Shown here in pieces: positions 1-54,220 of a stretch of DNA of 64,000 nt (position 1 is its first letter; each line of letters starts with the position of its first letter). Source of the DNA: Polytrichum commune (taxonomy: Eukaryota > Streptophyta > Polytrichopsida > Polytrichales > Polytrichaceae); NCBI GenBank assembly GCA_950295325.1, contig OX485806.1, positions 53,563,169 to 53,627,168 of the forward strand, written 5' to 3'. Made by a program: the position numbers and the translations under genes. The notes beneath the pieces were generated by a model. The model had not been told where the DNA came from and did no database searches. It saw only the letters and a list, made by a program, of their open reading frames with translations.

Positions 1-776
1 ACATTTTTGTAACTCTTCAGCTTGGCACCTAATTTGACCTACATTTTCTCGGCCAATCAAATATTTTGTAAAACATTCCGCTCCTTCATCAGAAGGTCTA
101 AGAGTACTTGGAAAGACTACCCTAGCTACTTGGGGCAATGTATCACTTTGGACGAAATCATTTAAGAACACTTAAGTACATTTAAGGGCTACTTCACACA
201 CGAGCCAAGAGCCATGACCATGAATTGTGAGAACCCACGAGAAGGTGTCCAAAGGCCGTCCCAAGACACCTCCAAAATTATGTATTGTGGTCATGGATCC
301 TCAACTGTAGTGTGCACCCATATGTGACCAGACCCTCAATCAAGTGTTATTTCAATGGATTTCTATTCATGTGAGTCTTCACACATGATAAAAACAAAAT
401 AAATCAACGGTTGTGAATATTCGGAATGCCAAGGTCTTTTGATTTTGTGTTAGGCCTACCTCCCAAAGGTGGATTCTTATGTTGTTGTTCGATTTCAATT
501 GATGACGTTAGCCCTAATTTAATATGAAACCATTTGAAACCTAGACTATAAGATCTTTGATATCAAATACATTCTTCCACGCCTTTAGGTTCTGGTTGTT
601 CCTTGAATTAGGTTGGGTTATTATCTCCACGGGAATGGGGTGCCTTTCCAACAAATTGAATTCAAACTATCTATAAATTCCACGGAAATAGGCATTGTTT
701 GTCCTAAAATTATCCAACAAAGTCAAAGTTTTCCGCTCTCTGCTCTCCGCTCTCCGCTCACACTACTAAGTTTTCC
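1..776 (+). mobile_element. Right end of a Mutator-like transposon (copy C), start outside window
   Basis: No coding region is visible here. The last 45 bases hold three to four clustered AGCGGA-type motifs (reverse complement of TCCGCT) and end in CTAAGTTTTCC. Read inward this is GGAAAACTTAGTAGTGTGAG, closely matching the right end of the 8-kb element at 17928. The upstream part shares short stretches with copy A, such as 'agccctaattt' and a 'ttccacggaaatagg'-like string also near 49050. Just after 776, chromovirus leader sequence starts at 'gaggaagc', so this end lies inside an older chromovirus. The matching target duplication lies outside the window. Confidence 0.6.
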
Positions 777-2760
777 GAGGAAGCGATGGCTATCAAATGT
801 GCGGCTTATGATTGTCAACCCATAATTTCTAAAATGTTGTTACACTCAAATTGGAATAAGGATCATGTACAAGTGGATGTTGACCCCACCATTGATTATA
901 ATAAGAATGATAAGGATAATGGTGGATTCGGGAAGAAAATGGGTGGAGTCCTTTGGAAAGGCTCCTGCAAACCTCAGAAATAATTCGAGGCTAGAATACC
1001 GAATATATCCGAAAGCTTGGAACGTGATGATGTTGGAATCAACTTGGTGCAAATGAGCCACCCAGGGTCTCTCAAGGCCTATGTCCGCGAATTTTACACC
1101 CACATGAATGCTACATCTAAAATGAACAAGTTTTTCTAAGAAATGCATTGTTTTAGGTGGGGTTTCAAAAGCGGGTGGAGAATACCATGTTCAAATTCAA
1201 AAAACTTATTGAGGTCGGTGCAGAGATCATCAAAATTGCCAAGAGCATTGAAGCCGATGATCCCGAAAAGAAGTTAGGTGGTGCCTCACCACAAAGTGGT
1301 TTTAGCCGATATAGGTCTCAAGGAAATGAGCGCAAGTACTTTGGCCCATTAAACCAAGGCAAAACATGCTCGTGCTTTATGGTACCAAGGTAATTCATGC
1401 TCGTGTCGTGGACGGAATGTTGGAAGGTGGCTTTGTGCTACCAAGGCAAATTATATTTGTGTCACGGATGGAATGTTAAAAGTCATTTTTGCGGACCAAG
1501 CCAAAACATGTTTGTTTCGGAGATAAAATGTTAGCAGTTGGCTTTGTAGTACCAAGCCAAATCATGTTTATGCCGCATACGGAATGTTAGAAATTGGCTT
1601 TGTGGTACTAAGAAAAATCACTTTTGTCTCACGGACAAAATTTTAGAAGTTAGCTTTGTGGTATTAAGCCAAATCATGTTTGTGTCGCGGATGGGATGTT
1701 AGAAATTGGCTTGGTACTACCAAGCCATATCAAATTTGTGCCGCAAATAAAATGTTAAACATTGGCTTTGTGGTATCAAGACAAATCACGTTTGTTGGCC
1801 ATTGCACATAAGAATATTAATCTCAATGATTGTCTGACCTTGTCCGATTTCTGAAAGAGATGGCTATCCCAAGAGTGGGATGAACTTTGTCACCAAGTCT
1901 TTGGGGAGGTTAAAAGAAAGTTGTCTTCGCCGTCCATGCTCAAGTTCTCGGAGTTTGACAAACATTTTGAGGTGCATACGAAGGCGAGTGATTTTGCCAT
2001 TGGCGGATTGTTGATGTAAGATGGATGGCCATTGCATATGGGAGGATGAAGCTCAATGGTTGTTGAAGAAGACGGCCAACTCACGACAAAGAACTTTTGG
2101 CGTAGTGCATTGCTTGAAGAAGTGGCGACATTATTTGGGGTCATACAAAGCAAAGGTCTACACGGACAATGTGTTCTTGAAGTATTTTATAACCCAAGCA
2201 CAAGTGAACGTCAAGTCATTGCGGTGGGATGATAGTTTGGCGCTAATGAAGGTGGATTTGATCCACAAACTAGACCATGGCAATGTGGTGCCGGATGCGC
2301 TAAGTAGACGGGAAGAGTTCCAAGCAATGAGAACCATCCAAACCTTGTGGCTAATGTTTACGGGTGAAAGAAACTCGTGATGCAAGATACGGAAGGGGTA
2401 CATTAACTACCCCGAAGCACAAAAAATTTAATGTGGGCTTCGCAAGAGTAAAGTGCTCAAAAATGTTAAATTGGTGGATGGATTGTTCAAGTATAAGCAA
2501 AGTCATGTGTATGTGTCATAAGGCAAGTTCAAGCTATCGATTTTGAAGCAGGATTCTGATGGTTCCATTGCTAGCCATAAAGGAGAAAGAACAAACCACC
2601 ATACAATGGTATCAAGGAGGTACCATTGGCGGTGCATAAAGGATGATATAGCCCACTTTGTGAAGGTTTGGATGAAGTGTGAAGTGAACCAAACCTCTTA
2701 TCAAAAGCAAGGCAACCTCTTGCAACCATTGCTTATTCCGTCGGAGCCATGACATAGTAT
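777..2760 (+). pseudogene. Chromovirus gag-pol remnant, plus orientation
   Basis: Decayed internal part of the same family as the minus-strand element at 21143-28275. In order: the post-PBS leader (777-860), gag (about 860-1350, with the phrases SLKAY and CIVLGGFQKRV), a 56-bp tandem array (1353-1800), an RNase H stretch (about 1860-2360, with 'MAIAYG' and 'THDKEL' in shifting frames) and the integrase zinc-binding N-terminus (about 2500-2750, with 'KRYHWRCIK'). Protease and all of reverse transcriptase are missing between the array and RNase H. Stops and frameshifts occur throughout. It was cut at its 5' side by the Mutator-like end at 776, and it abuts opposite-strand chromovirus sequence near 2770, which indicates rearrangement. 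Confidence 0.75.
1353..1800 (+). repeat. 56-bp tandem array in chromovirus gag, about 7.5 units
   Basis: Units begin with 'accaagccaaatcatgttt' or a variant and end with 'ggctttgtggt'. Unit starts fall at about 1384, 1440, 1495, 1551, 1607, 1663 and 1719. The unit is not a multiple of three, so successive units are read in different frames. About three diverged units occur at the matching place in the minus-strand element (26470-26660). Their translation there repeats a motif with a conserved Cys, but it is not a standard zinc knuckle. Confidence 0.75.
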
Positions 2761-2774
2761 GTGCATGGACTTAC

Positions 2775-2947
2775 CAAATTCATCGTTATTCCTACCAATG
2801 TCATTAAAAACAATGGTGTGGTCAAAATCCACTTGCACATGATCTTTGTTCCAATTTGAGCATCACAACCTTTAGGAAACCCCATGCTCAGCATCATAAC
2901 CCGCATTTGTGATACCTCAAAAATTCAACCCCTACTCTCAAACTACG
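2775..2947 (-). pseudogene. Chromovirus leader and gag start fragment
   Basis: Minus-strand leader sequence following the LTR at 2948-3909. It matches 27120-27300 by the run 'tttgttccaatttgagc' and the 'cataacccgcat' block. The tRNA primer site next to the LTR is no longer recognisable. The left side joins abruptly to plus-strand integrase remnant near 2770. Confidence 0.6.
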
Positions 2948-3909
2948 TGTCGCAACCCTCGCGTGTTCTTTTTAATTAGCTTGGTTATTTTTATTTCTAG
3001 CAAAGATCATGAATGCTAACAGTTTGCATTCTGCCATATCAATGGTTAGCTCCCCATACCACAAACCTGAATGCATAGGAGGGAAAAAAACCCTCTTCTT
3101 TGCTTTCAAGATTCACCCCTTAATCAATAACCAATTCTTAAATGTGGACTTCCATCCATGGAAGTCCAATCTTATGTTGACCATTGCGTTGCCGAAGCAA
3201 CACTACAACAACCCAAACCATATTAGGCAATGTTGCCCTCATATTGGGCCAAGCCCATGGAGGCCGTGCCGTTCGGCCTTGGGTGGGTTTGGCCACACCA
3301 CCTTACACATATAAGCCTTTAGGACTTTTAGCAGGGCCCCTACCCCACCGTCAAGAAACCTTTTGTCCCTCTACTAAGAATTGGGGCCAAGTAGATATTT
3401 TCCCTTAGACGCTGGGTTTTTGAAACCCCCATCATCTTTAGAACAACATAACTTTCTTATATGATATCTCATGAAACAAGCAACCCCTCCATTATCATGT
3501 ATGCATTACGTCAATGCCAATGGACTCCTCTCTTGCCCCACTAGGACAAGTATTGAGGAAGTTATTCCTGTTCAAACCTTAGTAGTCTCAGAAGCCACTC
3601 CTAGGCCACTGCTGTCTCAGGGTGCTGTCTCGGGACAACGCCCCACTCAAAATGCCATATCTCCAAGCTCACAACTTCGATTAAAGTTCTCTTAAGCATC
3701 CTATAATTTCCATGCCATAAGCTACGCATAGCTCATGGCCTTATCATTGTCCTACTTAGTCTCCATGAATGGGAGGCGTTCTCTATGCCCAGGGCCCCCA
3801 CCCACACTAGGATCATTTGGGCCCTCTCACCAATGGCGCCACAAATTATGGGTGTCACTCCGGGGTCCAACTTGTGCCCATGGTATTTTGGGCATTCTTT
3901 CATGGAGAG
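2948..3909 (-). repeat. Chromovirus LTR, old and truncated at its 5' end
   Basis: Starts TGTCGCAACCC on the plus strand, which is the 3' end of the LTR in its own orientation. It carries the family's marker hairpins in eroded form: the 'ggacttccatccatggaagt' stem, the modified CGCTGTC palindrome and the 'acgcatagctcatggcc' block. The last 12 or so bases of the family consensus are missing at 3909, where gag leader sequence begins. No target duplication is found. Confidence 0.8.
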
Positions 3910-4129
3910 CCTTTTCACTCCTCCGATTTCTTTACCAAATCCACCATTATTCCCACCAATGTCATTAGAATCAATGGTATGGTCAAAATACATTTGCACA
4001 TGATCTTTGTTCCAATTTGATCGTCACTAGCTTTTAAAAACCCTGGTTTCACCATCGTAACCCGCATTTTAGATAGCCATCTCTTCCTCCAAAAGCTAAT
4101 TCAAATCTAAAAACCGTGCTTTGATACCA
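3910..4129 (-). pseudogene. Chromovirus leader with degenerate tRNA-Met primer site
   Basis: Leader and gag-start sequence downstream (minus strand) of the LTR at 4132-5106. The primer site is the reverse complement of 'gctttgatacca' (4118-4129), one mismatch from the standard TGGTATCAGAGC complementary to initiator tRNA-Met. The order LTR, primer site, leader, LTR, leader from 5106 down to 2775 is two 5' ends in tandem, not a normal element. Confidence 0.7.
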
Positions 4130-4131
4130 CG

Positions 4132-5106
4132 TGTCGCAACCCTTATTAGCCCCCTTGACAATCTTAATCATTCTTCAATTCTAGCAAGGATCACAAACGC
4201 TTACCCTTCGCATTCCGCCATGCTAATGATTAGCTCCTCATATTGCAGACCTTATAGTTCATAGAAAGGGAACCAACCCTTCTACTTTGCTTTTGGGACT
4301 CATCCCTTGATTGAGAACCAATTTTAAGATGTAAACTTTAATTCATGGAAGTCCAATTTTATGTTGATCATCGCATTGTCGAAGCAACACTACAACAACC
4401 CGAACCATGCTAAGCAACTATGTCCTTACATTGGATTTATGCCCATAGAGGTTGTGCCGTTCGGCCTCGGGTGCGTTCCGCAACACCACCTCACCCAGAT
4501 AAGCCTCTAAGACTTTTGGAAACGCCCCCATCACACCATTAAGAAACCTTTTGACTCTCTACTAAGAGTTGGGGCCAAATAGACATTCTACCTTAGCCGT
4601 TGGGGCGGGAAGCCCCCAACAACTTCAGAACACCATAACATCCTTCTATTATGTTTGATGCTATAAAAAAACCAGTCTATTGTCATGTACACTTTACGTA
4701 GATCCTAATGAACTCATCAAATGCCCCATCTAAGCAAGTATTGAGGAAGTTATGCCTGTTCAAACATTGGCAACCCCAGGAGCCACTTCGAGGCCACTGG
4801 GGTAGCATGGTGATGTTCAGGGATAGCGCCCCACTAAAATTGCCATATCTCCTAGCTCACAAATCCGATTGAGGTGATCTTGAGCTTTCTAGAATCAGCA
4901 CGTCATAAGCTACTTATGGTTGATGGCCTTACCTTCTAGCCTGTTAATCTCCTTGGGTGAGAGGCGTATCCAATGCCTAGGGCCGTTACCCACACTAGGA
5001 TCATTTGGGCCCTGTCACCAACGGCGCCACAAGTCCTGGGTATCACTCCAGGGTCCCCCTTGTGCTCATGGTGTTTTGGGTACTTGTCATGGACATGTGC
5101 GCAACA
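4132..5106 (-). repeat. Chromovirus LTR, old
   Basis: Bounded by TGTCGCAACCC and GCGCAACA (family form GCGCGACA). It is followed on the minus strand by a two-base gap and a degenerate tRNA-Met primer site, which fixes transcription as minus. It is diverged from the young copies but keeps the 'attgaggtgatcttgagc' and 'ggcgccacaagtcctgggt' blocks. The right flank is chromovirus pol remnant, with no target duplication found. Confidence 0.8.
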
Positions 5107-5569
5107 CAATGGGACTATCATATATTTCCTTCAAAATCAATAGCCTCAACTAGCCCTATGGATCATACATTCGACTTTGTTTATACTTCAACAATTTGTC
5201 CACCAACATGATTTTTTTAAGCACTTTCACTACTAAAGATTGTGTACAATCTAGACATGTAACAAGACATTTATTGAAGTAAACAAAGACGTGACCTAAT
5301 AGCATATATTACTAGAAAGTGTGTTGTCTACGACATATCTTGGGGGACTATGCCCTACACCCCATGGATCATCTATTTGGACATAGCCAATATGTTTAGG
5401 ACCATTGCTTATGATGTCTAAATATACTAAAAGTTTTACGGGCTCCATACTAAATTATTACTTAATGTTAAAGCGTGCATGCATGTGTAGGGCTATCATT
5501 GGTTGATATGTTGAATAATGAGTGGTCCTATTTTATAACAAATGAGTGTCATTTAAAAGAGATATCCAC

Positions 5570-9390: not shown

Positions 9391-9915
9391 TGTAAAAGTT
9401 TAATTTGATTTTTTTAATTGAATTAATCTAATATTAGTGGTAAATACAAAATAAATAGTAAATATTATATCAGTTGGATAAGTTGGGAGTTAGAAATTAG
9501 CTTAGTAAATAAATCCTAATGGAATAAGCGATAACAAATTATTATAAGACTATTTTGGAATTTACTTAGCTAAAGGCAATAATCGAGTGGTTGGTAAGGC
9601 TAAATGTTTAAGATATTCCAAATACGAAATCACTAAGCGACAAAACAATTAGAAGAGTGGACTAAAATCACATTGACTAATAAGAATACTCCTTTGACTA
9701 AGCCGATTCATCTCGACGAGGGAAGATCCAATTTGACAAGTGTTTTGTGGGAGCCCAATATTCTACGGAAATACGGAAATACGGAAATACAGATCCATTT
9801 TCTGTATTTTACTCTGCTCGTATAAGGATAATAGGATCTCTTAGGGTAAATTAATTGTATTAGAAAACAGGGCGTTCTAAATCCGCTTCGCACGATAAAA
9901 ATGATAAAAAGGGGT
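9391..9915. other. AT-rich sequence with no recognised gene
   Basis: After chromovirus homology fades near 9390, nothing is recognised up to the 8-kb transposon. The only structure is a short direct repeat of 'tacggaaa' (about 9765-9790). The last eight bases before the transposon, ATTGTTAC at 9916-9923, form its left target duplication. Confidence 0.6.
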
Positions 9916-9923
9916 ATTGTTAC

Positions 9924-9990
9924 TGGAGCGTGACTTGTATGCGAGCGATGGGCGGAAAGCGGAGAATTGGAAAGCGGAGAGCGGAAAATG
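9924..9990 (+). repeat. Left terminal inverted repeat and subterminal AGCGGA cluster
   Basis: The tip is followed by TATGCGAGCG and then by motifs in the series GCGGAAAGCGGAG and GAGAGCGGAAAA (about 9951-9987). A comparable cluster lies inward of the copy B end (about 48925-48941) and the copy C end (about 728-760). Repeated subterminal motifs are typical transposase-binding sites; that role is inferred here. Confidence 0.65.
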
Positions 9991-10057
9991 GATAACACGA
10001 TCCAAATATAGAATATTTATGCTAAATTTAGTTTTCAAAATTTAGCATTTCGGAATA

Positions 10058-12831
10058 TTATATGAATATTTCCTTTTTTGGCCAATTTTTGAGACCTATA
10101 ACCGTGGATCCAGGGGGTTTAAAAATTGATACATTCCTATTTTTTTCTATTACCATGCTATCACTTTCAAGAATAATGGGCATCTGCACAGGACGAGCCC
10201 TCACAGCACGTCCTGAACCTCTTGGATGTGAGAAGTTTACCATGTCAGGTCGATGAGACTCCTCTTCAGCTCCAAGAGGTAGATCTGCCTTCCGCTTCGT
10301 GGACCCGAATACCTCTTCTCCAGCCATGCGAGGAACACGGGTACAAAACTCTTTTGCTCCAAGCATGTCCAGCATGGGGTCTTCAAGCAGTAAAGGATTA
10401 CCTGTTTGCTTCGCCCTGCGCTCTGCCATCCTTAGTTTGAGCTCTTTCTTTGTAGGGCATGTTCCGCCGACGTCACCTTTCAGGAACTGGTAGTAATTGA
10501 CAACCTGTAAGAAGCCTCGAACGAAGTCGTCAACTGTAGCAACGTAGAGGTCACCACCGCTGTTTCCAGACGCTTGAAGCCACTTGTTGTGTATTGTTTC
10601 AGCTAGATTACATGAAGGCATTTCTGCTAGTTCTTCTTCTGAAAACTTCTGCAAGTACGTAGTGGAAGTAGTTAGAGATTAGTGAAGAGTTGTTTCATAT
10701 TAGAGTACTGTGAAAAGAAGGAAAATAATATGAAATGTATTGGAAAAACATACCCCGGTCATGAAGCCTCCCCATTGGCGATAACGGTAGTGCCAGAATG
10801 CAAGCTAGAGCTCTAGTTTGTTTAGGGCCTTCTTTGTCACTGCCCCGGCGGATACCCACCATGCACGTAGCCCGTGGTACATACTCTCCGCTTCGTCCAT
10901 GGTCCTCGCCGTCCTATACTGGTGGCACATCTTCTTGTGCTGCTCCCAGAGTTCTTCGGGAATGTACTTCTCGGTATACTTAACCATAGACTGGGTCCAG
11001 TGAAACTGACAGGTTCTCTCGCGGTCGTCCATGCGGTCGTCCTTCTTCCCGTTGCCATATATGACCCAAACTGCATTCCAGTTGGCCTGGGCGCTGTTGG
11101 CCATGAAACCCTTGAAGTTGGGCTTGACAACGCCATTTCTCTCCATGACAGTATTGAGATTTTTCCAGAAAACGATCTGGACATCAGAGTCCTCAGATTG
11201 CATGTCACAACTTGCAATGGTCATGACACGGCAATATGTGGAGTCATACACGTGGCATGCCATTGTGGTCCATTGTCTTACACGTTTGACATGGTCGAAC
11301 ATCATCCAGGCATTCTCCAGATCTTCGCCGGGTTGCATACGCTTCACCAAGTCTACCCCACTACCAGGCCCGACTTCCGACATCTTGAAGACAAAAACCT
11401 TGTCAAGATCAGCCCCTTGACCTGGAAATTTGTTCTCCTAAACAAAGGCCCATAAACTGATTCCATGGAGTTTGGTGATAGAGTCCATGACACCATATCT
11501 TCTGAGGAAACGGAAGCTCATGACCTTGTTGCGGATGTTCGGAGAAGCCATGTCCTTGCATCGGTCAAATAGAGGAACAAGTTCCTCTAGACTAAGCTTC
11601 TTTGGCGGCGTGTCATCGGGTTGAAGAAGATAGTTGCTAATTAGAACTTTGCTAGCCTCCAACACCACTGCACTCTTGGTAGCCTGGGGAGTCTTCTCGA
11701 TCTGTTCTTCAATTAGGCCACTGATCTCAGCCTTAGTGTCTCTGTAGTCGCCCACCTTGACTGGGTGATCGTGAGTTCCTAGGTGGATACACGCTCTTGT
11801 ATGGTTGATTTTGCCAGCCACATAATAAATCTTTGCTCCACATGTAGCAATATATGCCGGGGGTCTTTACATACCTTGCAAACAAGAGTGGATTCAGTTG
11901 GGGGTGTTTGATTCACTACAAAGGCTTGTAGGGTACAACCTTCAAACTCTGTCTCGTTGATTTGGAAAATACGAGGACGGCGGATCAGATATTCGTAGTC
12001 CTTGTTGTTGCAACGCAGGTATGCAACGCAGTCGTTTGTGATGATGGTGGTGATGGTCTTCGTCCACATATGGCCGTCGTAACGCTTGTCCATTCCCTGC
12101 ATTGACTTGGCCTGTAACCGTGCGGCCGTGTGACCAATGGGTGGCAACTCAAATATGACGGCACCATCGAACACAGCAGGAAGGTACTCTACCCTTTCGT
12201 GTTTAATCACCGAGTAGTCTATTTTTTTAAGAATATTTTTTTTCCCAGGCATTCCGGCGAGTTGTTTAAGTAATGGTAATATGCTAACAGTATCTTGCCA
12301 CAAAGGATATACTTTAGGAGTGTTCCCACTAACTATGACCTTAGGCGGGGCCTTTGTGGGACTGCATTCTTCATCAGAAGAAAGTGTTATTACAGACTGA
12401 AATGTAATGTTTTCTACAATTGGCGTATCAAGACCAGGCTCGAGCTTGACCTTCACATCACGTGGCAGAGGAGTTTGAATGGTGCAGGTAGAGGAAGAAC
12501 GAGGAGTAAGGATCTCAGTAGACACAGCCATCTGAGAATCAGTGAGGCCATACACTCGGTAATCACCTGGATGAAGACTCCAGAACAAGTTATTGTTCTC
12601 ATCTCGCTGCAAAACCCGACTAAGGGTGTGTGTAAGCTCAGATGTGACAATGTCAAAAATATCCTCGTCAACAATAATAGTGTCTTCTCTGAAGCCGAAC
12701 CGAAGACTCAAGCGTTGTGACGTCACATAAGCTAGTCCGTTCTCCTCCATCCGAAAGGTAAGTGGGACTCTAACTCCATCAGCATAAAGGACAACCATCC
12801 CCAACTCTCCGTTAGCAGGAAAATGAGCCAT
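10058..12831 (-). pseudogene. Mutator-like (MULE) DDE transposase, broken
   Basis: Minus-strand gene starting at ATG 12829-12831 (MAHFPANGELG). A longer frame to 12942 is possible. The N-terminal part carries SVITLSSDEE, resembling a SUMO-interaction motif, beside VKVKLEP, a sumoylation-type site. A CxxC...CG zinc-binding-like segment follows (about 11850-11890). The catalytic region has VYDSTY (first Asp), FMANSAQANWNAV (second position, Asn where Asp is expected), the RTCQFHW motif (the MULE CxxH block) and NLAETIHNKW (catalytic Glu). Defects are a frameshift near 11850, an in-frame TAG at 11438-11440 and another TAG at about 10805-10807. The last exon follows a 105-bp intron. Transposase identity rests on motif order; I assigned no exact subfamily. 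Confidence 0.75.
10649..10753 (-). other. GT-AG intron in the MULE transposase
   Basis: The donor GTATGT follows the codons for QWGGFMTG, and the acceptor TACTTGCAG precedes KFSEEELAEMPSCNLAE. The homologous copy B has a 93-bp intron at the same place (54647-54739). Intron conservation shows that these are decayed genes, not retrocopies. Confidence 0.8.
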
Positions 12832-13371
12832 GATGAGGGGAATGAGGCCTTGCACTAAGAAAAAAATATGAAAGAGGATTCTTAACATTGTGGGCCATCT
12901 ATATATTACAAATGGGCTGCCAACGATAACGACATGATCCACATGATGGATGAACTCTGAACGAAAGCTTCACTAATATTTTCAATATGGAAACAACCGT
13001 CCTTGAGTCTAAAAGTGATGGGTAACGTTGTCATGATATATATAAGTATAGCGTGCAAGTCATGGTAGACATTCTACTCGACAAGCAATTAAATATGATT
13101 ATTTGGCGCCGACTTAAAGCATAATTCATAACTAGGTCTAGAGATAGACTTCACGTTTCAAGACAGGAATAGAACGAATGACAAAGACCCAATTGGGCAT
13201 TAAATATAGGATTGTCGCTCGTGCGAACACTTGTATAAGATCTCGTGATACTCATATCCTTTGTTTTAGAATCATAAGTTATGGACTCTCGAGTGCCGTA
13301 AGATGTGTTCGGTTCAAGGGAGGGTTTTGGGAGTGCTGGAGTAGACATGCTCTAGAAGGGTGATACCTGAC
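12832..13371. promoter_or_regulatory. Divergent promoter region between transposase and methyltransferase-like genes
   Basis: About 540 bases separate the two start codons. A TATA-like TATATATAAG at 13037-13046 points toward the plus-strand gene, about 325 bases before its first ATG. No clear TATA was found for the transposase side. Shared control of the two genes is inferred from the layout only. Confidence 0.45.
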
Positions 13372-13701
13372 ATGCAGAACCATATCAAGAAAAGGAAAAA
13401 GAGAAGGAAGTTGTATTTCAGTAGCACTAAGGCATTGAAGACGAGTAAAATGGGGAGGAAGAATGTCCAACACAAAAGATACAAGACAAATGGAATTAAC
13501 AAAGTTTTAGATTTTGAAGACAGTGGGGAGAACGCAACATTGTCGACGGTAGATGAATATGAAGGTCCGTCAACATCCCGGGGCCGAGGATGTCCGTCTG
13601 GAGGTACATCGAAAGAATTGGAAACGCAGTCCAATCCTGCATCCAATCCCGCATCGGAGGAGCACAGTGCGGAGGACGAGCTTGATGGAACCGAAAGGTG
13701 G
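13372..13701 (+). CDS. Probable first exon of the methyltransferase-like gene, lysine-rich
   Basis: An open frame from ATG 13372 encodes a basic start (HIKKRKKRRK, a nuclear-localisation-like cluster), then a Ser/Thr/Glu-rich low-complexity stretch with YEGPSTSRGRG. The frame stays open to a stop at 13720-13722. GT donors lie at 13698 and 13702. Joining 13701 to an acceptor at 14271 (GGCCTCAG) keeps the frame into the next exon. The link is not proved, and this could instead be a separate small basic protein. Its position inside the transposon and its plus orientation fit the methyltransferase-like gene downstream. Confidence 0.5.
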
Positions 13702-14271
13702 GTTTCTAGAACCTATACTTGATTCTTGTGTTCACCTCAGATTAGGGGCCAGAGTGATTCAAAAACTTCGTGACAATGAACATTTGAGTAGGACAGACAA
13801 GATTTATGGACTGCGACGGAGGAGGTGCAGGCAAATGATATCAAGTTTGGGTTCTAGACGTTTAGGGCTTTGTTTTGGCGAGTCTAAGCACAAGTTTGAG
13901 GCTGCAGGGGGCTAAGTGAGGCTCGTCAAAATCAAGATTTTAGTGGTTCCGGTTGGAAGTGAGGCTGTCTGCAGAGGGTTTTAGTTGATGCACATAGAAT
14001 GCTGGTTTTGCTTTGTAAGGGTGTAGAGGGTTGTTTTGTACAAGTCTAAGCACAAGTTTGAGGCTGCAAGGGCTAAGTGACACTCTCCATAGAGATATGG
14101 ATCTCTTTGTTTGGGCTTGGCATGTAGAAGTTATGGCCAGTAGAATGGAAGTTAGTATTCATCTTGAATTTCATGTTGTCATTTGACTATCCCCTAATAA
14201 GCTATGGCAAGGATGGTAACCTGTAAGACAACATCTAATTTCTTAAAAATGTTTCGTGTGCATGGCCTCAG

Positions 14272-16605
14272 ATAGCAGTGGAGGCTGACGAGCTCTTCTC
14301 GGGTGTTCTCATAGACCTTGGGGAAATTGTTGAGTACAATCTCGATGGCGAAGATCCTATTTTGACTATCTTCGATTACGTGGAGGCCATGAGGTGTCAG
14401 CTCTGGGAGATTGCCTTCTTCATTGAGTTGGGTGGAGATAACGGCGCTCACAAGAACAACCCCCCGGACAAGCAACATTTTTTTGTTCAAGTTGTCCGCA
14501 GAGTCCTTTACAGGTACTTTTGATACGTTCTCCTACCCATGAAGGCCATCTCTAAGGTACCCGCTTTCTTCCCTAACTACCTGGACTTCGAAAGTCCTGA
14601 TTCCATGTTCACTCCTGCAATTATAAAAATATGGGATCCAATTCACTTTCAATAGTGCGGGTGGTACTTGGATTGTCCGTTCAAGAAGCCTCTTCCCTTT
14701 GACATCACGCTCAAGGACTCCATCTAACCTCTCCTACCTTCTCCCGCTGCATCAGTTCCAAGCTCAGAGTCTCCCACACCCCCCAAGGGTGGCTCCTCCA
14801 GAAGCAAGACCGCTACTAAAGGGAGTAGGCCTCGGGGATCCAAGCGGAAGGCTGCTGAGTTGGTTGAGGAGCCAATGGACAAAGATATTTGTGTAACAGG
14901 TGGTGATTTCGGTGTTCCACCTGCTGAACTTGCAGACCCTATCAGCTCCCATCTTCCACGTGCACCTGGTCCTAAGCGTATTCATCTGGGAGTTGCTGGT
15001 CAAGCCAAACCCATCACATTCGTCCCACCTGCGTTTAAGTCAATGTCGTCATCCCAGGCATGCACCTCCTCCTCTGCTTCTCCTCGGGTTCTCATACTCA
15101 ATGACTCATTCCACATGATGTTGGATTATAAGGCGAAGCACAACAAATTCCCTTCAACTTACGATGACATGGTTGCTTTTCTAAGTGAGGTACATATCCA
15201 GCTTAATTCCCATTCAATTCAGCTAGCATGCCCTTATTCACCAATTCATTCTCTACTAAACGCTCTGGTTTTTTTGAAACAAAGGTTGGAGCATCCAGGG
15301 AATTCTTCTTCTCAAGCAAGGTGTTGCAGAAGGCTGCAGTGGACCTCATTATTGCAGAGTATCCCGATGGTTTGCCTGTCCCAGGAATTTCCAAATTTCC
15401 AGGGCAAGTTCCAAATTGGAATAAGCAGGTTGACAACTTTATCAAGTTCACAATTGGCTTTTGTCAAGGGTATCTTCACGACGACGGGGCTCTCCTCCTA
15501 TTCTATCCTGACAGCGTGCAAATAAAAAAGGAGGTTTTGAGCTTTCTCTACAACAACAATCTGGAGGTCAAGGAAGAATGGACCATCGTGAATCCTCTCC
15601 ACCTCACTCACCCTATGCATAACTCCAAGCGGGTCAGTAATTCTAGTCATTTTGTGCTCTTTAAGTTCTCACTCCTTCATGACTTGAATCACATTGCTAA
15701 CAATTCGGGGCCTATTATTGATGTCCAGACTCTGAAATTCAAAGCCATTGTGTTGGTTCGGTCTTTCTCCACACCTTTGGTTAGGCAACCGAAGGAGTTC
15801 GTCATTTCGTCTAGTGACAAATTTGAAGATGTTGACCTTGCAAATGATGACGTCCTTTTCAACATTGTCACTGCTGATACTGCACTCAAGCGCAATGACG
15901 GTGACAAGTTTTGGAGGGGCCCTAAGGAGAAGGCAGTGTCCCTGCTCCAGCTTCTAATCAGTGGCCTTAGCCCTCCCGGGGGCATTATATGTGACCTCAC
16001 TGCTGGAACTGGTATAAGCAATTTGTTCAACATTCCCATCTCTCTAGACTTAGGCAATTCAATCACATGCGACTAATTCATTTGTTTCGGTCTTTGTAGG
16101 TGCCTCGGTTCTTGCAGCACAATCTTCTAACAGGGCAATTGTGGCACTTGAGGGAGACAAGGAATTGTACGAAGAACTCCTGCATCCACTTCAGGTCGCA
16201 GCGTCGGAGTGTCGCGGGGTCGATCCAACCCACTTTGTAGACCTTGACGACGACGACGATACCCTCTCTCAACAGGGTGCAGTTAGTCTATGTGAGTAAG
16301 TCTTTTGTCATTTTAAACTTCTTTTTTGAATATGTTGCATTTAATTCGAATGATTCTAACAATCTTAATTTGTCCTTTGTTGTTGCAGTTTGATGGTTGA
16401 AGGCCGTCGCTCCGTAGACTACGGCTCACCTCGTAGTTCTAACATGCGACTTCCCTGTTATGCAGAGGATATGGCAGTAGCTTATGCCAAAAACTCTTCT
16501 CCTAGTTGTAGTGCCTCTTCTAGTCCATGTCATAGATACGATCCAAGAGTACTCAGATTCATAGATCAAAGTGCTTCGGAGAGTGAGAATGAGTTTATTC
16601 CTTGA
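14272..16605 (+). pseudogene. DNA (N4-cytosine/N6-adenine) methyltransferase-like gene carried by the transposon, broken
   Basis: Four exons follow from frame and splice sites: 14272-15189, 15285-16011, 16100-16295 and 16389-16605, with GT-AG introns of 95, 88 and 93 bp. Exon 1 has a Pro/Ser-rich linker with basic RPRGSKRKAA. The next region reads AVDLIIAEYPDG, at the place of the catalytic S/D-PP-Y motif, then GYLHDDGALLLFYPDS, like the following strand. The SAM-binding motif I, ICDLTAGTGASVLAAQ, is split by an intron and followed by AIVALEGDKELYEELL. The order catalytic motif before motif I is that of beta-class amino-methyltransferases (N6_N4_Mtase family). In-frame stops lie at 14521, 14653 and 14725. 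The catalytic motif lacks the Pro-Pro pair, so activity is doubtful even apart from the stops. Confidence 0.65.
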
Positions 16606-17928
16606 ACTCCATTTTGTATTGGATTGTATTATTTATGTCTTTTTGATTTCCGACGCAAGTCTCATACTTGCTCTTCTTTATTTCATACTCATAATGTCAA
16701 CCCGCATTGCATTCTTCATTTATTACTGTTAATTTTTTTAGTTTGTGGATTAGCCTTTAAGTATAGTTCAAGTGTCCCTAAACAATATGGCTCTCACAAT
16801 CTTAACCGCTAGTCACAAAACAATGTAGCATCCACCCATTCCAATAAAAAGTTGGTGCCTCACACACCTCCTCCTTGTTTCATTAAATCATAAGTATTCA
16901 ATAATACTTAAGTTGCACACCACACAATACACTCCAATTCATACTACCCACTTGTATTCTTCATTTATGTTCACCCTCTATAATGTTCACCCTCTATAAA
17001 TGTTAACCCTCGGGAGTGGATCAAAGTTAACATTCATAAATGTGTTAACAGCTAACAATCATAAAATTATTTTTTTGAGCAATATACAAATCTTAACATG
17101 TTCTAAATATAAGCAAATGTGAACAGTACCTGTGAGAGAATACAATTCACAAAATTGCAAACCCAATCCAAACTTTATTCAATATCAAGTTTACAAATCA
17201 TGGGTGAAGTATGAATCAATGGTTCTTTGGTGAGATTCATGGGCATGCACAACTTCCAAATATTTCTCAATCTGCACCAACAAACCCACGTACTTGGACA
17301 TCCACATGAACGTGTTTCCACGTACCTTCTAATGGAACTTTTCATATGCCTCCATTCTTGAACATCCATCACTAGAACTATTAGTAGCCAAACTTAGTCT
17401 TTCCAAAAGACTGTTTATGGTTGTATTTCATTCGTTAACATTTATAGAGTCAAATTTACAAAGAAGGGAGTAGCATTTTGTTAACAAGTCACACGTTTAA
17501 CATTTATAGTGTGCAATATGTGGGGAGTAGAATAAAATTAACATTTAGAAAGGGTTAACATTAATAGAGGGTGGACTGTATGTGGAGAATTTTTTTTCAC
17601 AAACATCCTTTGTGTTTCCTTCAAATAGTAAATTTTATTTAATTTACAGTAATATGTACTATAGTACACAAGTTTGCTAATTGTATTTGTGACGTCATAG
17701 TGATGTAAGCCCTAATTTTTATTTTATTAAAATATTTCTATGTTTCAAAAATCTATAAACGTTATGAATGGGGAAATGTTGGCTTATTTCCATGGTAATA
17801 GAGTCCCTAACTCTTAAAAGTTTCTAAAAATAGTTCGATTTTTTCCCTCAATCCCGCGGTTATAGGTGCATTTTCCCTCTCAATTCATGTCTCAAATTGA
17901 GTTCTCCGCTCGCATACTAACTTTCCCC
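16606..17928. other. Right non-coding arm of the 8-kb transposon
   Basis: AT-rich sequence after the methyltransferase-like gene. No gene is seen. It contains a small nested inverted-repeat element (16968-17578). The last 25 bases, CTCCGCTCGCATACTAACTT and the closing TCCCC, form the right terminus. Confidence 0.6.
16968..17578. mobile_element. Small pogo/mariner-like inverted-repeat element (MITE-like)
   Basis: Inward from the left the sequence reads TGTTCACCCTCTATAATG, and the same motif restarts as CACCCTCTATAAATGTTAAC. Inward from the right it reads CAGTCCACCCTCTATTAATG. Both ends abut TA (16966-16967 and 17579-17580), as expected for Tc1/mariner/pogo elements. Further 'ttaacatttatag' copies occur in the right half (about 17440, 17500 and 17550). 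No transposase is seen. The left tip is degenerate, so the exact boundary is uncertain. Confidence 0.5.
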
Positions 17929-17936
17929 ATTGTTAC

Positions 17937-18373
17937 CGGTCCGGCAATTGGACTAGGAGGACCATTTAATAGATTGGACTAGAGTAACGGTTACGCCACG
18001 ATTAACCAACGGTCCGGAAGTGGCGGTTACAACGGACTTGTGGCGGTTGGGGGAAAACCGTTGGTAAAACGGTTGGCAACCGTTTTCCGTTAAAACGAAC
18101 GGTAACAGGGGAAGGAAGAAGGAGGAAGGATATTTAAGGGTCCCTTCCTTCTCCTCCCCACTTTTTCGCAAGAAGAAAATTTGTTGAGAGAACGAGTGGT
18201 GAGGTGGTGTTTTTTTTCTCTCGAGCCGCCAGCAGTTGGATTGCTGGGACTCCGTAATTTCCAGTTACCGGCAGTTGGCTTACCGGGACTCCATAGCAAT
18301 TAAGCGGAAGAGAGGGAATCCGGAGGGGAGAGAATTTCCGTAGCTGTGACAGGGGGTGAGAGAAGATAGGAAA
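17937..18373 (+). promoter_or_regulatory. Promoter-like leader of plant-transposon-protein-like copy A, with clustered AACGG motifs
   Basis: About eight AACGG/CCGTT cores lie between 17985 and 18110 and form overlapping hairpins. Such cores resemble MYB-binding (mitosis-specific activator-type) sites. A TATA-like TATTTAAG lies at 18131-18138, about 240 bases before the first good ATG at 18374. Pyrimidine-rich sequence follows. The regulatory role is inferred. Confidence 0.45.
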
Positions 18374-19962
18374 ATGCCGGAAGCACGGGAAGAAGATCGG
18401 AGGGAACCCATCCCGATTCCGCTCAAAGCCCTCATCCCTACAATTCCGAGGGAGGACGGGGAGCTGCAGCAGCTAGCGGAGGATTTCCGGGTTATGGGTT
18501 GCGCGGGGTTGCTCGCCAAACCCTGGAACCTCCGAGCGGAAGATACCCTCCGGGAGTTCAAGTTCGAGAGAGGGAATCAGTGGCTGGGAACTAAAAGGAG
18601 GGATCCGGATAGTTGGACTCCGGATGTCTGGAATAAGGTTTATGGGTTTCCGAGAGGAATTGCAGAGGGGTGGGCCGGCCGCCGCGATGGCCTGTTCGCC
18701 GGAAAGTTTAGAGGGGACGCGGACCCGAAGGACGGCTTCCACCGCGGGAACTGCCGCAACCTTAGGTATTAGAGTTCCTCCTGCCCATCCTTAACCCGGA
18801 CAAGCCTAAGCGGATCAGCCTTACCATGGCTAACACCTTGTTTGGTGCTATGTCCGGAGTCCGGCCCGTGAATTGGGGGTTGATAATTCACGAAGTAGTA
18901 GGGCGGGGGCCTCCCCAATGTAGGCCGGAAACCCTCCTTCCTCTCCCCTTTCATTCTGCACCTCTATCAGCACTTTGACTGCATCACGGCCGAGGAGGAG
19001 GACCTGCTGACGATAGCGGCGGAGGAGGTCACCTACAAGCTCCATCCGGAAGTTGGGGACCTCGAGACGGAAACTTCTAGCGACCCCATCATTCCGGAAG
19101 CGCCTCCCTCTTCACCCGGAAGCCCGCCGCCGACCCTCCAGAGACCAATCTCTCCTCCCCTCATTATCATCCGGAAGCCGGACCCTGTCGGGAGACCACT
19201 TGGCGGAATGTGGATCTCTCCGCTTGGGACTTTCCGGAAAATCCCTTCAAGCGGGTCCAGGAGGGGCTGGAGGATCTACAGAACCAGTACTTCCGGCTAG
19301 GACACATCGTCCGGGGAACAAATCAGGCCATGGACGACTGCGGACCTGGAAATATTCTCCGGGAGTTGGCGAAGAGGGCGGACAGGAAGGAGCTTGAGCA
19401 AGCCAAGACGGAGAACGCTCACCTCACCGCGCAGGTAGCGGCCATGACTCAGGAGTTGAATAAGAAGAGTGAGGAGATCCGGAAGTACCACGCAGAGCAG
19501 GCAGTGGTCTTCGGCCGAATCCGGGAGCTGGTGGAGCATCCGGCAGAGATCGTCAACAAGGCGCATCTCTACGACCGGATGATGGAGTTCGGAGAACCAA
19601 CTTTCGCTAGGCAGACCCTTCCCATCCTCGTGAAATACTCATGGACGATGAAGGATCTCATGGCGGAGATCTAGAAGGTGGTTCCGCCAAGCGGAACACC
19701 CCGGCGGGTACTCTATCCGGGCCCTCCTGGGTCACCAACCGGAACCCTCTACGAGGTAGTTGGTGAAGTCGCCCTAGTCCAGAATCCACCAACGGCTGCA
19801 GGACCCAGCCAGCAGGGAGGCGACTCTCGGCCTGCCAGTTCCGGAAGAGCTCCGGAAAGGATCCGCTATCCCCAGGTGAGGCGGAAGAGCATCGGGTCTG
19901 TTAGATCCGGACGAGGCCAGTCCCATGTTCCTGAAGGAGGAGGGAAGGACTGGAACGGTTAG
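18374..19962 (+). pseudogene. Plant-transposon-protein-like gene, copy A, broken
   Basis: Starts MPEAREEDRREP. A block around VYGFPRGIAEGWAGRRDG, GKFRGDADPKDGFH and RISLTMANTLFGA resembles the conserved core of the 'putative plant transposon protein' (Transposase_32-like) family; the assignment is from memory. A Pro/Ser-rich linker follows, then a coiled-coil-like stretch (about 19370-19530: KRADRKELEQAKTENAHL) and a Ser/Gly/Pro/Arg-rich tail. A deletion of about 10 bases at 18768 relative to copy B shifts the frame, another change lies near 18905, and a TAG occurs at 19672. Copy B (60123-62679) is clearly homologous. The molecular role of this family is not established. Confidence 0.6.
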
Positions 19963-20640
19963 GATTCCTGGTCGGAGGCCATCTCCGGAGTGTAGTGGGA
20001 AGGGGACCTTATTGTTCCGGATGTCTGGGTAACGTCTCGGTGAGATAGCCGTAGGGAGGACTGGGTTAAGATCCGGGAGGGATCCGGACTTGTGCCAATC
20101 TGATCTTCTGAAGAGGTCTCACTGCTTTTGGATGGGACAATCCGGAAAATGGTATGGATCACCCACTTATCCCGTTGAGTTAGATCTCCGGGTGGAATCC
20201 GGCATACTCCGGTCGTTGTAGCCCTAAGATATAATCCGGGTTCCCTGTGTGACCTACCAGGACGGATTGGCTAATCCGGATTGGTTGTGAGGGAATACCC
20301 GGATCCCAATCTTGTAAGGGACGTCTTCACCGGAAGAAACCAACTATTCTAGAGGGGTAAATCAAGACCATAGGGGTGAGTAAGTTTTATAATTAGGACC
20401 TAAAGATACAATCCGAAAAGGCAAACCCCGGAGGAAGAAGAGTTTCCAAAAGACCGGAAGACCGGAAACTGGAGTTTCCGGAAATTCGGCTAAGGAGTGG
20501 AAGATAAGCGGGTACGGAGAGTTCTCGACCTCCTACACTTCACAGAATCCCTGGACGATACTAGGGTCATCTGGACAAAACCGGATTAGGCACTTAAAAA
20601 CGCCAATCTGGATAATTTAGTGTTTGTGTGAACTCACATG
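19963..20640 (+). other. 3' non-coding region of copy A, rich in CCGGA
   Basis: No open frame of note. From about 20080 it is homologous to 63140-63712 behind copy B, and the homology stops at almost the same base ('...gtgaactcaca' here, '...gtgttcccaca' there). This marks the 3' end of the mobile unit. TCCGGA/ATCCGG motifs occur every few tens of bases in both copies. Confidence 0.6.
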
Positions 20641-21142: not shown

Positions 21143-22113
21143 TGTCGCAACCCTTGCTAGGTCCCTTAATAATCTTGCCAATTTTCGTTTCTAGCAAAGG
21201 TCACGAGCGCTAACCCTTCGCATTCCGCCATGCTAATGGATAGCTCCTTTTACCCCGGACCAATAGTTCATAGGAGGGAACCAACCCTCCTACTTTGCTT
21301 TCGGGGCTCACCCCTTAATCGGTAACCCATTTCCCCAATGTGGACTTCCATCCATGGAAGTCCAATCCTATGTTGATCATCGCGTTGCCGGAGCAACACT
21401 ACAACAACCCGAACCATACTAGGCAACTATGGCCTCACAATGGGCCAATGCCCATGGAGGCCGTGCCGTTCGGCCTCGGGTGGGTGAGGCCACACCACCT
21501 CACCCATATAAGCCTCTAGGACTTCACGCGGGGCCCCTACCCCACCGTCAACCAACCTCTTGTCTCTCTACCAAGAGTTGGGGCCAAGTGGACATTTTCC
21601 TTTAGCAGCTGGGCCTAGAACCCCCTAGCAGCTTCAGACCATCATAACTTCCTTGTATGATGTCTGATCATAACACCCAACCACTCCATCTTCATCTACG
21701 CTTCACGTAGATGCCAATGGACTCCTCACTTGCTCCATTTGAGCAAGTCTTGAGGAAGTTATGCCTGTTTGAACCTTGGCAGTCCCGGTAATCACTCCAG
21801 GCACTGCTGTACCAGGGCGCTGTCCCGGGACAGCGCCCCACTCAAATGGCCATAACTCCTAGCTCACACCTCCGATTGAGGTGTTCTTGAGCTTTCTAGA
21901 ATCACCACGCCATGAGCTACGCATAACTCATGGCCTTACCCTTGTGCCTCCTAGTCTTCGTGGGTGGGAGGCGTTCCCAACGCCCGGGGCCCTCACCCAC
22001 ACTAGGATCACTTGGGCCCTCTCACCAACGGCGCCACAAGTCCCGGGTGTCACTCCAGGGTCCCCCTTGTGCCCATGGTGTTTCGGGCACTCCTCATGGA
22101 GAGGTGCGCGACA
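21143..22113 (-). repeat. 3' LTR of the young chromovirus
   Basis: Termini TGTCGC and GCGACA form a 6-bp inverted repeat. The LTR contains the perfect palindrome GCGCTGTCCCGGGACAGCGC and several other hairpins. It is the downstream LTR because the purine tract lies at 22114-22125 and the primer site follows the other LTR. Confidence 0.93.
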
Positions 22114-27302: not shown

Positions 27303-27304
27303 AG

Positions 27305-28275
27305 TGTCGCAACCCTTGCTAGGTCCCTTAATAATCTTGCCAATTTTCGTTTCTAGCAAAGGTTACGAGCGCTAACCCTTCGCATTCCGCCATGCTAATG
27401 GATAGCTCCTTTTACCCCGGACCAATAGTTCATAGGAGGGAACCAACCCTCCTACTTTGCTTTCGGGGCTCACCCCTTAATCGGTAACCCATTTCCCCAA
27501 TGTGGACTTCCATCCATGGAAGTCCAATCCTATGTTGATCATCGCGTTGCCGGAGCAACACTACAACAACCCGAACCATACTAGGCAACTATGGCCTCAC
27601 AATGGGCCAATGCCCATGGAGGCCGTGCCGTTCGGCCTCGGGTGGGTGAGGCCACACCACCTCACCCATATAAGCCTCTAGGACTTCACGCGGGGCCCCT
27701 ACCCCACCGTCAACCAACCTCTTGTCTCTCTACCAAGAGTTGGGGCCAAGTGGACATTTTCCTTTAGCAGCTGGGCCTAGAACCCCCTAGCAGCTTCAGA
27801 CCATCATAACTTCCTTGTATGATGTCTGATCATAACATCCAACCACTCCATCTTCATCTACGCTTCACGTAGATGCCAATGGACTCCTCACTTGCTCCAT
27901 TTGAGCAAGTCTTGAGGAAGTTATGCCTGTTTGAACCTTGGCAGTCCCGGTAATCACTCCAGGCACTGCTGTACCAGGGCGCTGTCCCGGGACAGCGCCC
28001 CACTCAAATGGCCATAACTCCTAGCTCACACCTCCGATTGAGGTGTTCTTGAGCTTTCTAGAATCACCACGCCATGAGCTACGCATAACTCATGGCCTTA
28101 CCCTTGTGCCTCCTAGTCTTCGTGGGTGGGAGGCGTTCCCAACGCCCGGGGCCCTCACCCACACTAGGATCACTTGGGCCCTCTCACCAACGGCGCCACA
28201 AGTCCCGGGTGTCACTCCAGGGTCCCCCTTGTGCCCATGGTGTTTCGGGCACTCCTCATGGAGAGGTGCGCGACA
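27305..28275 (-). repeat. 5' LTR of the young chromovirus
   Basis: 971 bp, almost identical to the LTR at 21143. A TATA-like segment (minus GGCTTATATGGG, plus about 27664-27675) could be the promoter. The terminal inverted repeat TGTCGC...GCGACA is intact. Confidence 0.93.
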
Positions 28276-28280
28276 CAGCA

Positions 28281-31259: not shown

Positions 31260-31261
31260 CG

Positions 31262-32228
31262 TGTCGCAACCCTTGCTCATCCCCTTCAAAATCTTGCCAA
31301 TATCCATTTCTAGCAAAGGTTACGAGTAATAACCCTTCGCATACCGCCATGCTAATGGTTAGGTCCTCTCAACCCGGACCTTATAGTTCATAGGAGGGGA
31401 ACCAACCCTCCTACTTTGCTTTTGAGACTCACCCCTTTAATCGGTAACCAATCCTTAGATGTTGATTTCCATATATGGAAGTCCAATCTTATGTTGATCA
31501 TCGCATTGCCTGAGCAACACTATAACAACCCGAAGCATACTAGGCAACTATGGCCTAACATTGGGCCAATGCTCATGGAAGCCGTGCCGTTCGGCCTCGG
31601 GTGGGTGAGGCCACACCACCTCACCCATATAAGCCTCTAGGACTCTACGCGGGGCCCCTATCCCACCGTCAAGACACCTTTTGTCTCTCTTCCAAGAGTT
31701 GGGGCCAAGTAGACATTTTCCCTTAGCTGTTGGGCATAGAAGCCCCCAGCAGCTTCAAACCATCATAACTTCCTTGTATGATGTTTCATGTTAACAAATG
31801 ACCACTCCATCTTCATCTACGCTTCACGTAGATGCCGATGGAATCCTCATTTGCCCCATTGAGGCAAGTATTTGGGAAGTTACGCCTGTTCAAACCTTGG
31901 CAATCCCGGGAACCACTCCCAGACACTGTTGTATCAGGGCAGCGCCCTGAGTGGGACATCGCCCCACTCAAATTTCCATAACTCCTAGCTCACACCTCTG
32001 ATTGAGCTTTATGGAATCACCACGCCATAAGCTATGCATAGCTCATGGCCTTACCCTCGTGCCTCCTAGTCTCCGTGGGTGGGAGGCGTTCCCAACGCCC
32101 GGGGCCCTCACCCACACTAGGATCACTTGGGCCCTCTCACCAACGGCACCACAGGTCCCGCGTGCCATTTCAGGCTCCCCCTTGTGCCCATGGTGTTTTG
32201 GGCACTATTCATGAAGATGTGCGCGACA
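31262..32228 (-). repeat. 5' LTR of the older chromovirus
   Basis: Bounded by TGTCGCAACCC and GCGCGACA. It differs from the young LTRs at many sites: 'gaccactccatcttcatct' is kept, but the palindrome region is rearranged to 'gggcagcgccctgagtggga'. The primer site follows on the minus strand. The right flank is plus-strand RNase H remnant. Confidence 0.88.
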
Positions 32229-32482
32229 CTTGCCACCAAGTGAGGAGCTTAAGAGCAAATTATCTTTGCCGCCCGTGCTTAAGTTCGCAGAGTTTGACAA
32301 ACCTTTTGAGGTGCATACGAGGGAGAGTGATTTTACCATTGGTCAATGTTGATGCAAGATGGATGGCCATTGCATATGGGAGTATGAAGCTTGATGGTTG
32401 TCCAACCTTGCCGGTGAAGGAAACTTGTGATGCAAGGTACGAAAGGGGTAAATTAACTACCCCGAAGCACAAAAACTTTTAT
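32229..32482 (+). pseudogene. Chromovirus RNase H fragment, plus orientation
   Basis: Matches the RNase H unit ('gaggagcttaagagcaaatt', 'cctttgaggtgcatacga', 'gatgttgatgcaagatgg') and then skips to the later 'gggtaaattaactaccccga' block, so an internal deletion is present. It ends at 32482, where a reverse LTR starts. Related plus-strand sequence resumes at 44229. Confidence 0.65.
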
Positions 32483-53868: not shown

Positions 53869-54220
53869 CTAACAGTGAGAGTTGCATTAACATGGAATGG
53901 TTGCTGGAGTGAAAGGACACCTGTACCTCACTTGTTGATGGAGGTAGCTGCGGCATAGCTAAGTGCAGAGGGTGGGTGAAGTATACTTAGGAAGCAGTGT
54001 GATTGGTAGGAGAAGTGTTTAGGACATTGTAAGAGACTCAAGTGTTTATGAATACTTGGACGTTTTGTAATAAAGAAAACATAAAGAAAGGTGTTATACA
54101 CACCACTTCTCCCAATCCTCCTTCTTTGCTCGCATTTGTTCCTTGTATGATTGAATGTAGCCCATGAACCCTCACCCGGACTAGGACGCAATCGAAGGGT
54201 GAGGGGGATTTGGGTTCTCT

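Follow-up and report, generated by a model that had tools for sequence, protein, structure and literature searches.

The unit at positions 9924-17928 of the window (the whole 64,000-nucleotide stretch of DNA analysed here) raises the question what a DNA transposon does with a methyltransferase-like gene. The unit is a transposon flanked by 8-bp duplications, with a transposase gene on the minus strand and a methyltransferase-like gene, hereafter the second gene, on the plus strand. An earlier reading, made from the letters alone (the sequence-only reading), had described it as an 8005-bp Mutator-type element carrying a DNA-methyltransferase-like gene, and this description was borne out. Based on its architecture and on homology, the unit is almost certainly a decayed copy of a two-gene Mutator/IS256-type transposon lineage. 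The lineage keeps a gene with a methyltransferase fold under selection, and the catalytic motif is consistently altered. As the best overall explanation, still a tentative one drawn from sequence comparison, the second protein may act as a non-catalytic DNA-binding accessory factor of the element.

The left target-site duplication, ATTGTTAC, lies at 9916-9923 and the right one at 17929-17936. These are the only 2 exact occurrences in the whole window; 2.1 occurrences of this 8-mer are expected by chance, and the match is weak evidence taken alone. The left end (9924-9990, plus strand) consists of a TATGCGAGCG core and a degenerate array of GCGGARA heptamers, a 7-bp tandem repeat in 5 copies. 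The same left end is found in the copies C4b, C3a and C3b, and a related one in the copy L065. The right end (17869-17928, minus strand) reads inward as GGGGAAAGTTAGTATGCGAGCGGAG. Within the window, TATGCGAGCG occurs without mismatch only at 9938-9947 (plus) and 17907-17916 (minus). The similarity score of the two 60-bp ends was 11, which was reached by 465 of 20,000 random pairs and is modest evidence alone. The AGCGGA motifs claimed for the left end are present at 9958, 9973 and 9980 (3 of the 33 occurrences in the window, both strands counted). The boundaries are settled by copy C3a, which has the same ends and its own duplication, ATTGTGTG (extendable to ATTGTGTGTA), and which thereby confirms the related ends described earlier. 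The end similarity of C3a was reached by 12 of 20,000 random pairs, with the right end compared from 3 bases inside. The original duplication may have been 8 to 10 bp long, because a ninth base in the window would need a T/C mismatch. Duplications of 8 bp in the window, 8-10 bp in C3a and 9 bp in another copy, S50, lie within the 8-11 bp range of Mutator and Mutator-like elements (MULEs; PMC6446971).

Further copies were sought in the 408-Mb genome (64 contigs) that contains the window. The best 135 of 1480 methyltransferase-like and the best 150 of 1632 transposase candidates were scored, and the resulting counts are lower bounds. At the DNA level, 42 places matched the left 501 bp, the window itself included. 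Copy C3a (contig C3; L041 and L042) is about 16.04 kb long and carries both genes between left and right ends as in the window. In copy C4b (L039 and L040) both genes accompany a left end of the window type, and no right end was found. Copy C3b (L043 and L044) likewise has the left end and both genes. Because C3a, C4b and C3b carry both genes with the same left end, the gene pair moves as a unit. At least 143 methyltransferase-like open reading frame (ORF) matches were scored, most of them at 75-94% identity, a second set at 41-52% and a few at about 34-38% (longer piece).

For the diverged subfamilies, the surroundings of one member from each of three groups (S50, S35 and S43) were compared. 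S50 (contig C1; L059, L045 and L060), whose subfamily shares about 50% protein identity, is 12,385 bp long, is flanked by the 9-bp duplication AATGAACTA and has its transposase at 1612-5197 (minus) and its second gene at 10061-12064 (plus). The S35-type subfamily, less than 40% identical, retains both genes as well; S35 itself (contig C4; L063, L052 and L064) has the transposase at 664-4297 (minus), the second gene at 9506-11986 (plus) and right-end repeats at about 13,610. In S43 (contig C1; L061, L047 and L062) the second gene and right-end repeats were found. Thus the sequence-only reading, which had called for further copies that hold both genes within matching ends and duplications, is answered by C3a and S50. 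The contrary possibility it had raised, that other copies always lack the methyltransferase-like gene, fails with the same two copies.

Pairing of the two genes was counted at 121 second-gene loci, for which the 143 matches were merged by hand by dropping second pieces of a locus. The transposase set was the list of 150 places less one on contig C38, leaving 149. A transposase within 20 kb was diverging at 36 loci, on the same strand at 2 and convergent at 2 (a lower bound). When transposases were placed at random in 500 trials, diverging pairs averaged 0.47 and never exceeded 3. Among the best 135 of 1480 candidates there was no sign of a conserved host locus for the second gene.

Other parts of the window also hold family sequences. 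At 732-772 lies the right end of another copy, with CCGCTC heptamers and then TTTTCC; its body would precede the window start. The left end of a further copy is found at 48912-49202 and is 77% identical to the L065 left end. Transposase remnants (54195-55063) lie about 5 kb downstream of it, with repeats of about 1 kb between. No methyltransferase-like match at an E-value of 0.05 was obtained in the window outside 9900-18000.

The transposase gene of the window copy (10058-12969, minus strand) is decayed. Its protein matches to C3a lie at 10166-10678, 10703-11449, 11453-11863, 11860-12186 and 12223-12960. The C-terminal part, including a putative SWIM-like finger, is present in C3a and missing from the window copy at about 10151-10166. 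The predicted fold of a transposase homologue has ISCth4 as its nearest structure and is that of a DDE transposase with an IS256-like RNase H core. The SWIM finger (PF04434), which is common among plant MULE groups (PMC6446971), reached an E-value of 0.0036 and 17.2 bits in C3a, against a cutoff of 19.6, and an E-value of 0.14 in L065. Pfam gave no MULE-type match for any of the pieces from the window, for four pieces of C3a or for 25 homologues. Both genes diverge from a shared region, as had been proposed, and this region (12970-13371) now measures about 0.4 kb between the spans found, instead of the 540 bp given before.

The second gene is present as claimed; its exon count is now six coding exons rather than four or five, all on the plus strand. 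Exon 1 (13372-13697) encodes a basic N-terminal segment, and exon 2 (14272-15189) the N-terminal region and a low-complexity linker. The methyltransferase core lies in exon 3 (15285-15632) and includes the altered motif IV (AEYPDGLPVPG); exon 4 (15729-16011) supplies motif X, WRGPKEK, as well as motif I, DLTAGTG. The end of the region binding S-adenosylmethionine (AdoMet) is encoded by exon 5 (16100-16295; GASVLAAQSSNRAIVALEGDKELYEELL), and the C-terminal tail with the stop by exon 6 (16389-16605). The 96-nt intron at 15633-15728 has no in-frame stop and therefore the unspliced sequence reads as an ORF. An intron at 14514-14727 was considered and rejected, since this stretch is coding in relatives; it holds the three in-frame stops of the window copy (14521, 14653 and 14725, all in exon 2). 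Intron 1 contains the remnant of a tandem array (13870-14151, plus strand). Relatives carry further exons between exons 1 and 2, which the window copy lacks, and at the junction 14151 copy C4b holds about 2.1 kb extra with the array and further exon matches. Judged by lengths modulo 3, the exon 1-exon 2 junction is out of frame in the window copy. This copy is decayed, with both genes broken.

The fold of the second protein was predicted from a Ceratodon homologue, P0213, and is that of a beta-class amino-methyltransferase. In this model 76 of 275 residues have a predicted local distance difference test score below 50, many of them after motif I. Among the structural matches METTL3 and MTA1 were present too, ranking lower than DNA amino-methyltransferases. 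The motif order IV - X - I, with an AdoMet motif I, is that of the beta class (PF01555), and motif I is kept as DLTAGTG or close to it in most copies. Comparison with PF01555, which had been suggested as a check, thus agreed in fold and motif order and fell short in score: the spliced window core reached 25.8 bits (14.6 unspliced) against a gathering score of 26.7.

Motif IV, the catalytic motif, is altered throughout. In two alignments (A1, 7 rows; A2, 24 rows) the block D-L-x-x-x-x-x-P-[DE] is present in all rows; the first place of motif IV is filled by D, E, Q, N or V and the fourth by D or E. The canonical form [DNS]PP[YFW] was found at this position in 0 of the 44 readable loci among 45 genomic loci, window included (L058 is the unreadable one), and in 0 of 90 block-bearing database proteins among the matches listed. 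The forms in these 90 relatives were EYPD (47), DIPE (17), DYPD (6), DMPE (4), DLPE (4), DQPE (3) and nine single forms; D or E replaces the aromatic residue at the fourth place in 88 of them. Motif IV thus nearly always reads [DE]xP[DE], and GLPVPG typically comes after it. This census was a text pattern over 153 listed proteins, including 120 of 190 matches from one search, and the 63 without the block were not judged. Four [DNS]PP[YFW] strings occur anywhere in the 153 proteins, all outside motif IV. A PF01555 match in a plant genome need not mean writing of N4-methylcytosine (4mC) or N6-methyladenine (6mA); P0213 has a precomputed PF01555 annotation, yet its motif IV is DIPE. In rotifer N4CMT, exchange of SPPY for APPA abolishes 4mC, the catalytic Ser and Tyr being needed (PMC8885841). 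The change in motif IV looks fixed and functional rather than like decay of a single copy, because its surroundings are conserved across proteins 25-55% identical. We consider it likely that the second protein has lost base-methylating activity, and the earlier proposal, in which the element carries an amino-methyltransferase that could mark the element's ends, is not supported in that form.

No direct relative of the whole gene was confirmed in prokaryotes or viruses: viral contigs gave 7 pattern matches with alignment A3 and 30 with A1, and genome contigs 28 with A1, none of which was confirmed. By tblastn, phage methylases were reached only from P0213, with 21.6-37.3% identity among the matches listed; its best match (E 5e-7) is an unannotated record.

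Selection on the second gene was measured as the ratio of nonsynonymous to synonymous substitution rates (dN/dS), with stops and gaps skipped; saturation affected most comparisons among the 88%, 50%, 43% and 35% groups. In the 12 lineage pairs whose dS was 0.25-0.48, dN/dS was 0.07-0.15 (window-L014 0.07, C3b-L057 0.10). For S50-S50b the ratio was 0.10 (dS 2.6) and for S35-S35b 0.05 (dS 1.8), both near saturation. Young copies (25 loci of one group, 290 pairs) had a mean dN of 0.0155 and dS of 0.0287. They look relaxed, and the pattern is the usual one for active source lineages leaving decaying copies. Since the same diverging layout recurs in diverged subfamilies and purifying selection has acted on the gene between lineages, it belongs to the core of this transposon lineage and is not an accidental capture. 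The second proteins of the subfamilies sharing the layout are now about 35-55% identical.

A further exon encodes what we call the DGNHR domain. It is present in five of eight element sequences (C3b, S50, S35, S43 and L065), within the interval that corresponds to the 14151 gap of the window. In L065 it lies at 10590-11345; the loci of the other carriers are L043, L059, L061 and L063. Residues invariant in all five aligned domain copies include I-P-L-C, V-R-P and D-G-N-H-R. DGHHR is a ParB motif, and the domain recalls the ParB/sulfiredoxin superfamily (PMC3482391). No supporting match to the domain was found in Pfam, NCBIfam, PDB, phages or plasmids, and a ParB-like nature, suggested by the motif, is a lead only. 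Based on their order and orientation, the DGNHR exons and the methyltransferase exons would form one protein.

Tandem repeats were scanned in five of the eight element sequences: the window copy, C3a, C4b, L065 and S50. A long intronic array was found in four of the five, and the window keeps a remnant. In the intron after exon 1 the array units differ, with 212 bp x 16.4 in C3a, 180 x 7.7 in C4b and 170 x 8.5 in L065; the array of S50 (105 x 6.7) lies immediately before the DGNHR exon. End heptamers of the GAGCGG type lie at 410-432 and 16379-16393 in C3a, at 201-244 in L065 and at 13021-13077 in S50. The end repeats of S43 are GCTCA units (13144-13186).

Based on these observations, we propose that a protein derived from a bacterial-type DNA methyltransferase would no longer transfer methyl groups to DNA bases and would bind the element's own repeats, the terminal heptamers and/or the intronic tandem arrays. 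Such binding could act against silencing, much as VANC acts for VANDAL elements, or could aid the transposase in end assembly. The protein may still bind AdoMet, and the DGNHR domain, ParB-like in appearance and present in five of eight sequences, could confer binding to DNA or to nucleotides. The short motifs recognised by VANC21 and VANC6 build up through tandem repeats in introns and other noncoding VANDAL regions (PMC5735166). An anti-silencing role is favoured because the anatomy of the intronic arrays parallels these targets; as the main role it is a conceivable answer that we put somewhat below even chances. Anti-silencing would possibly be better served by such a DNA-binding, VANC-like role than by methylation. 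In a more specific and rather doubtful version, a ParB-plus-methyltransferase protein of bacterial or phage type was captured long ago by a plant Mutator element, lost its base-methylating chemistry through the fixed change in motif IV and became an anti-silencing reader that scans arrays and heptamers, a pseudo-methyltransferase counter-defence independent of VANC. The old active site may then sense or shield methylated DNA. If repeat binding holds, the element would offer a second, independent system for studying transposon escape from silencing, in what is probably a non-flowering plant; the Ceratodon homologue points to a moss as the likely host.

Several observations weigh against a non-catalytic DNA-binding factor. 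Motifs I and X are kept, although a pure DNA-binding protein would have no need of them, which leaves room for an unusual enzyme; most relatives also have an acidic residue at the first place of motif IV. The DGNHR domain was not found in C3a, C4b or the window, and the best match in its profile search was the ParB-like phrog_1033 (E 0.21, one member), with nothing significant. Close pairs had higher dN/dS (window-C3a 0.22, C4b-C3a 0.24, window-C4b 0.49), finite values between distant groups were 0.16-0.39, and S43-S43b gave 1.43. No copy was established as intact in both genes, and S43 shows no transposase in about 9 kb upstream of its second gene. L065, which represents at least 11 equal-scoring transposase places, has no methyltransferase-like exon in 17 kb. 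Ahead of a probable insertion at about 13.6 kb it does hold related counterparts of exon 1, of the DGNHR-domain exon and of the exon-2 region. If intact copies of the L065 group lack the methyltransferase part, the fold would be dispensable there.

Among the alternatives, a transposition accessory survives best and is somewhat unlikely. Such a protein would bind the terminal heptamers and aid end pairing, integration or target choice, without a role in silencing. It would fit a gene that mostly diverges from the transposase and is under purifying selection, and heptamer ends that are common to diverged subfamilies. The second gene of maize MuDR, mudrB, has a convergent or antisense layout, so that layout alone is not decisive here. 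End pairing, however, needs no long intronic tandem arrays, and most of the MULE groups tabulated in PMC6446971 have a single ORF. An active, unusual amino-methyltransferase, in which [DE]xP[DE] works and writes 4mC, 6mA or another mark on ends or repeats, protecting the element or tuning it, is unlikely. The kept motifs X and I, the acidic first residue and the beta-class fold speak for such an enzyme, and rotifer N4CMT is a precedent for the uptake of such a bacterial enzyme by a eukaryote (PMC8885841). In contrast, 88 of 90 relatives have D or E where the aromatic residue should be, none of the 90 has the canonical motif, and replacing Ser and Tyr by Ala in N4CMT abolishes 4mC (PMC8885841). 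An AdoMet-dependent enzyme that acts on protein, RNA or a small molecule and alters host silencing factors would suit a kept motif I beside a consistently changed motif IV; it is very unlikely, as fold and nearest sequence relatives are those of DNA amino-methyltransferases and no other substrate is indicated. Functionless capture of a host gene fragment is extremely improbable even with a broken window copy and the tendency of MULEs to acquire such fragments (PMC6446971), as the same gene holds the same place and orientation in diverged subfamilies, and random capture is ruled out by the diverging pairing and the dN/dS of 0.07-0.15 in the 12 moderately diverged pairs.

The proposed DNA-binding accessory factor has partial counterparts in known systems. 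A MULE with an accessory gene is already known as a kind; the ancestry of the accessory gene seen here was not found described for any MULE. The VANDAL elements of Arabidopsis are likewise MULEs with an accessory gene and with tandem repeats in introns and noncoding parts (PMC5735166, PMC13317346). VANC acts in trans, binding motifs specific to its element and removing DNA methylation; the parallel here is one of anatomy only, in the accessory gene and the intronic arrays. In contrast to the beta-class fold and the DGNHR domain (five of eight sequences) found here, the accessible text on VANC does not mention a methyltransferase (PMC5735166), and no methyltransferase homology of this described plant counter-silencing gene is apparent in the accessible parts of its accounts (PMC5735166, PMC13317346). 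CcrM, M.BceJIV, the PvuII methyltransferase and rotifer N4CMT share the fold, the motif order IV - X - I and motif I with the second protein. Unlike these beta-class DNA amino-methyltransferases, it has a non-canonical motif IV in every readable relative and its gene is transposon-borne.

DNA transposons that encode a methyltransferase are also represented by two viral Mariner elements, which belong to another superfamily, reside in viral genomes and carry the Methyltransf_26 and C5-methylase families (PMC3627910). Fungal DNA transposons with TET/JBP dioxygenases, and MuDR and HarbingerS elements with SET genes, resemble the present element in carrying genes for epigenetic marks (PMC12730594), and SET genes occur in Phytophthora MULEs (PMC6446971). 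These TET/JBP and SET elements differ in protein family and host. Retrotransposons of dinoflagellates and charophytes carry C5 cytosine methyltransferases and hence an element-borne methyltransferase homologue (PMC5890265); they differ in being retrotransposons and in the C5 class. No plant DNA transposon with a PF01555-type gene was found in the literature, preprints and most subscription journals aside.

The remainder of the window holds other repeats. A repeat of about 0.97 kb, which also matches in reverse orientation (foldback-like), has many copies in the window and inside other loci; in the window it lies at 21143-22113, 27303-28278, 31261-32231, 40745-41717, 50541-51513, 52876-53868, 59151-60123 and 60493-61473. 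To the right of the element, 18134-20270 is a retroelement-like coding stretch (MPEAREEDRREPIPIPLKAL...). A protein closely similar to its product is found in L066, where the L065 transposon copy appears interrupted. The stretch 56118-58806 is probably a young mobile element, because it is 97.8% identical to sequence of C3b (L044) beyond the end of its match to the window element.

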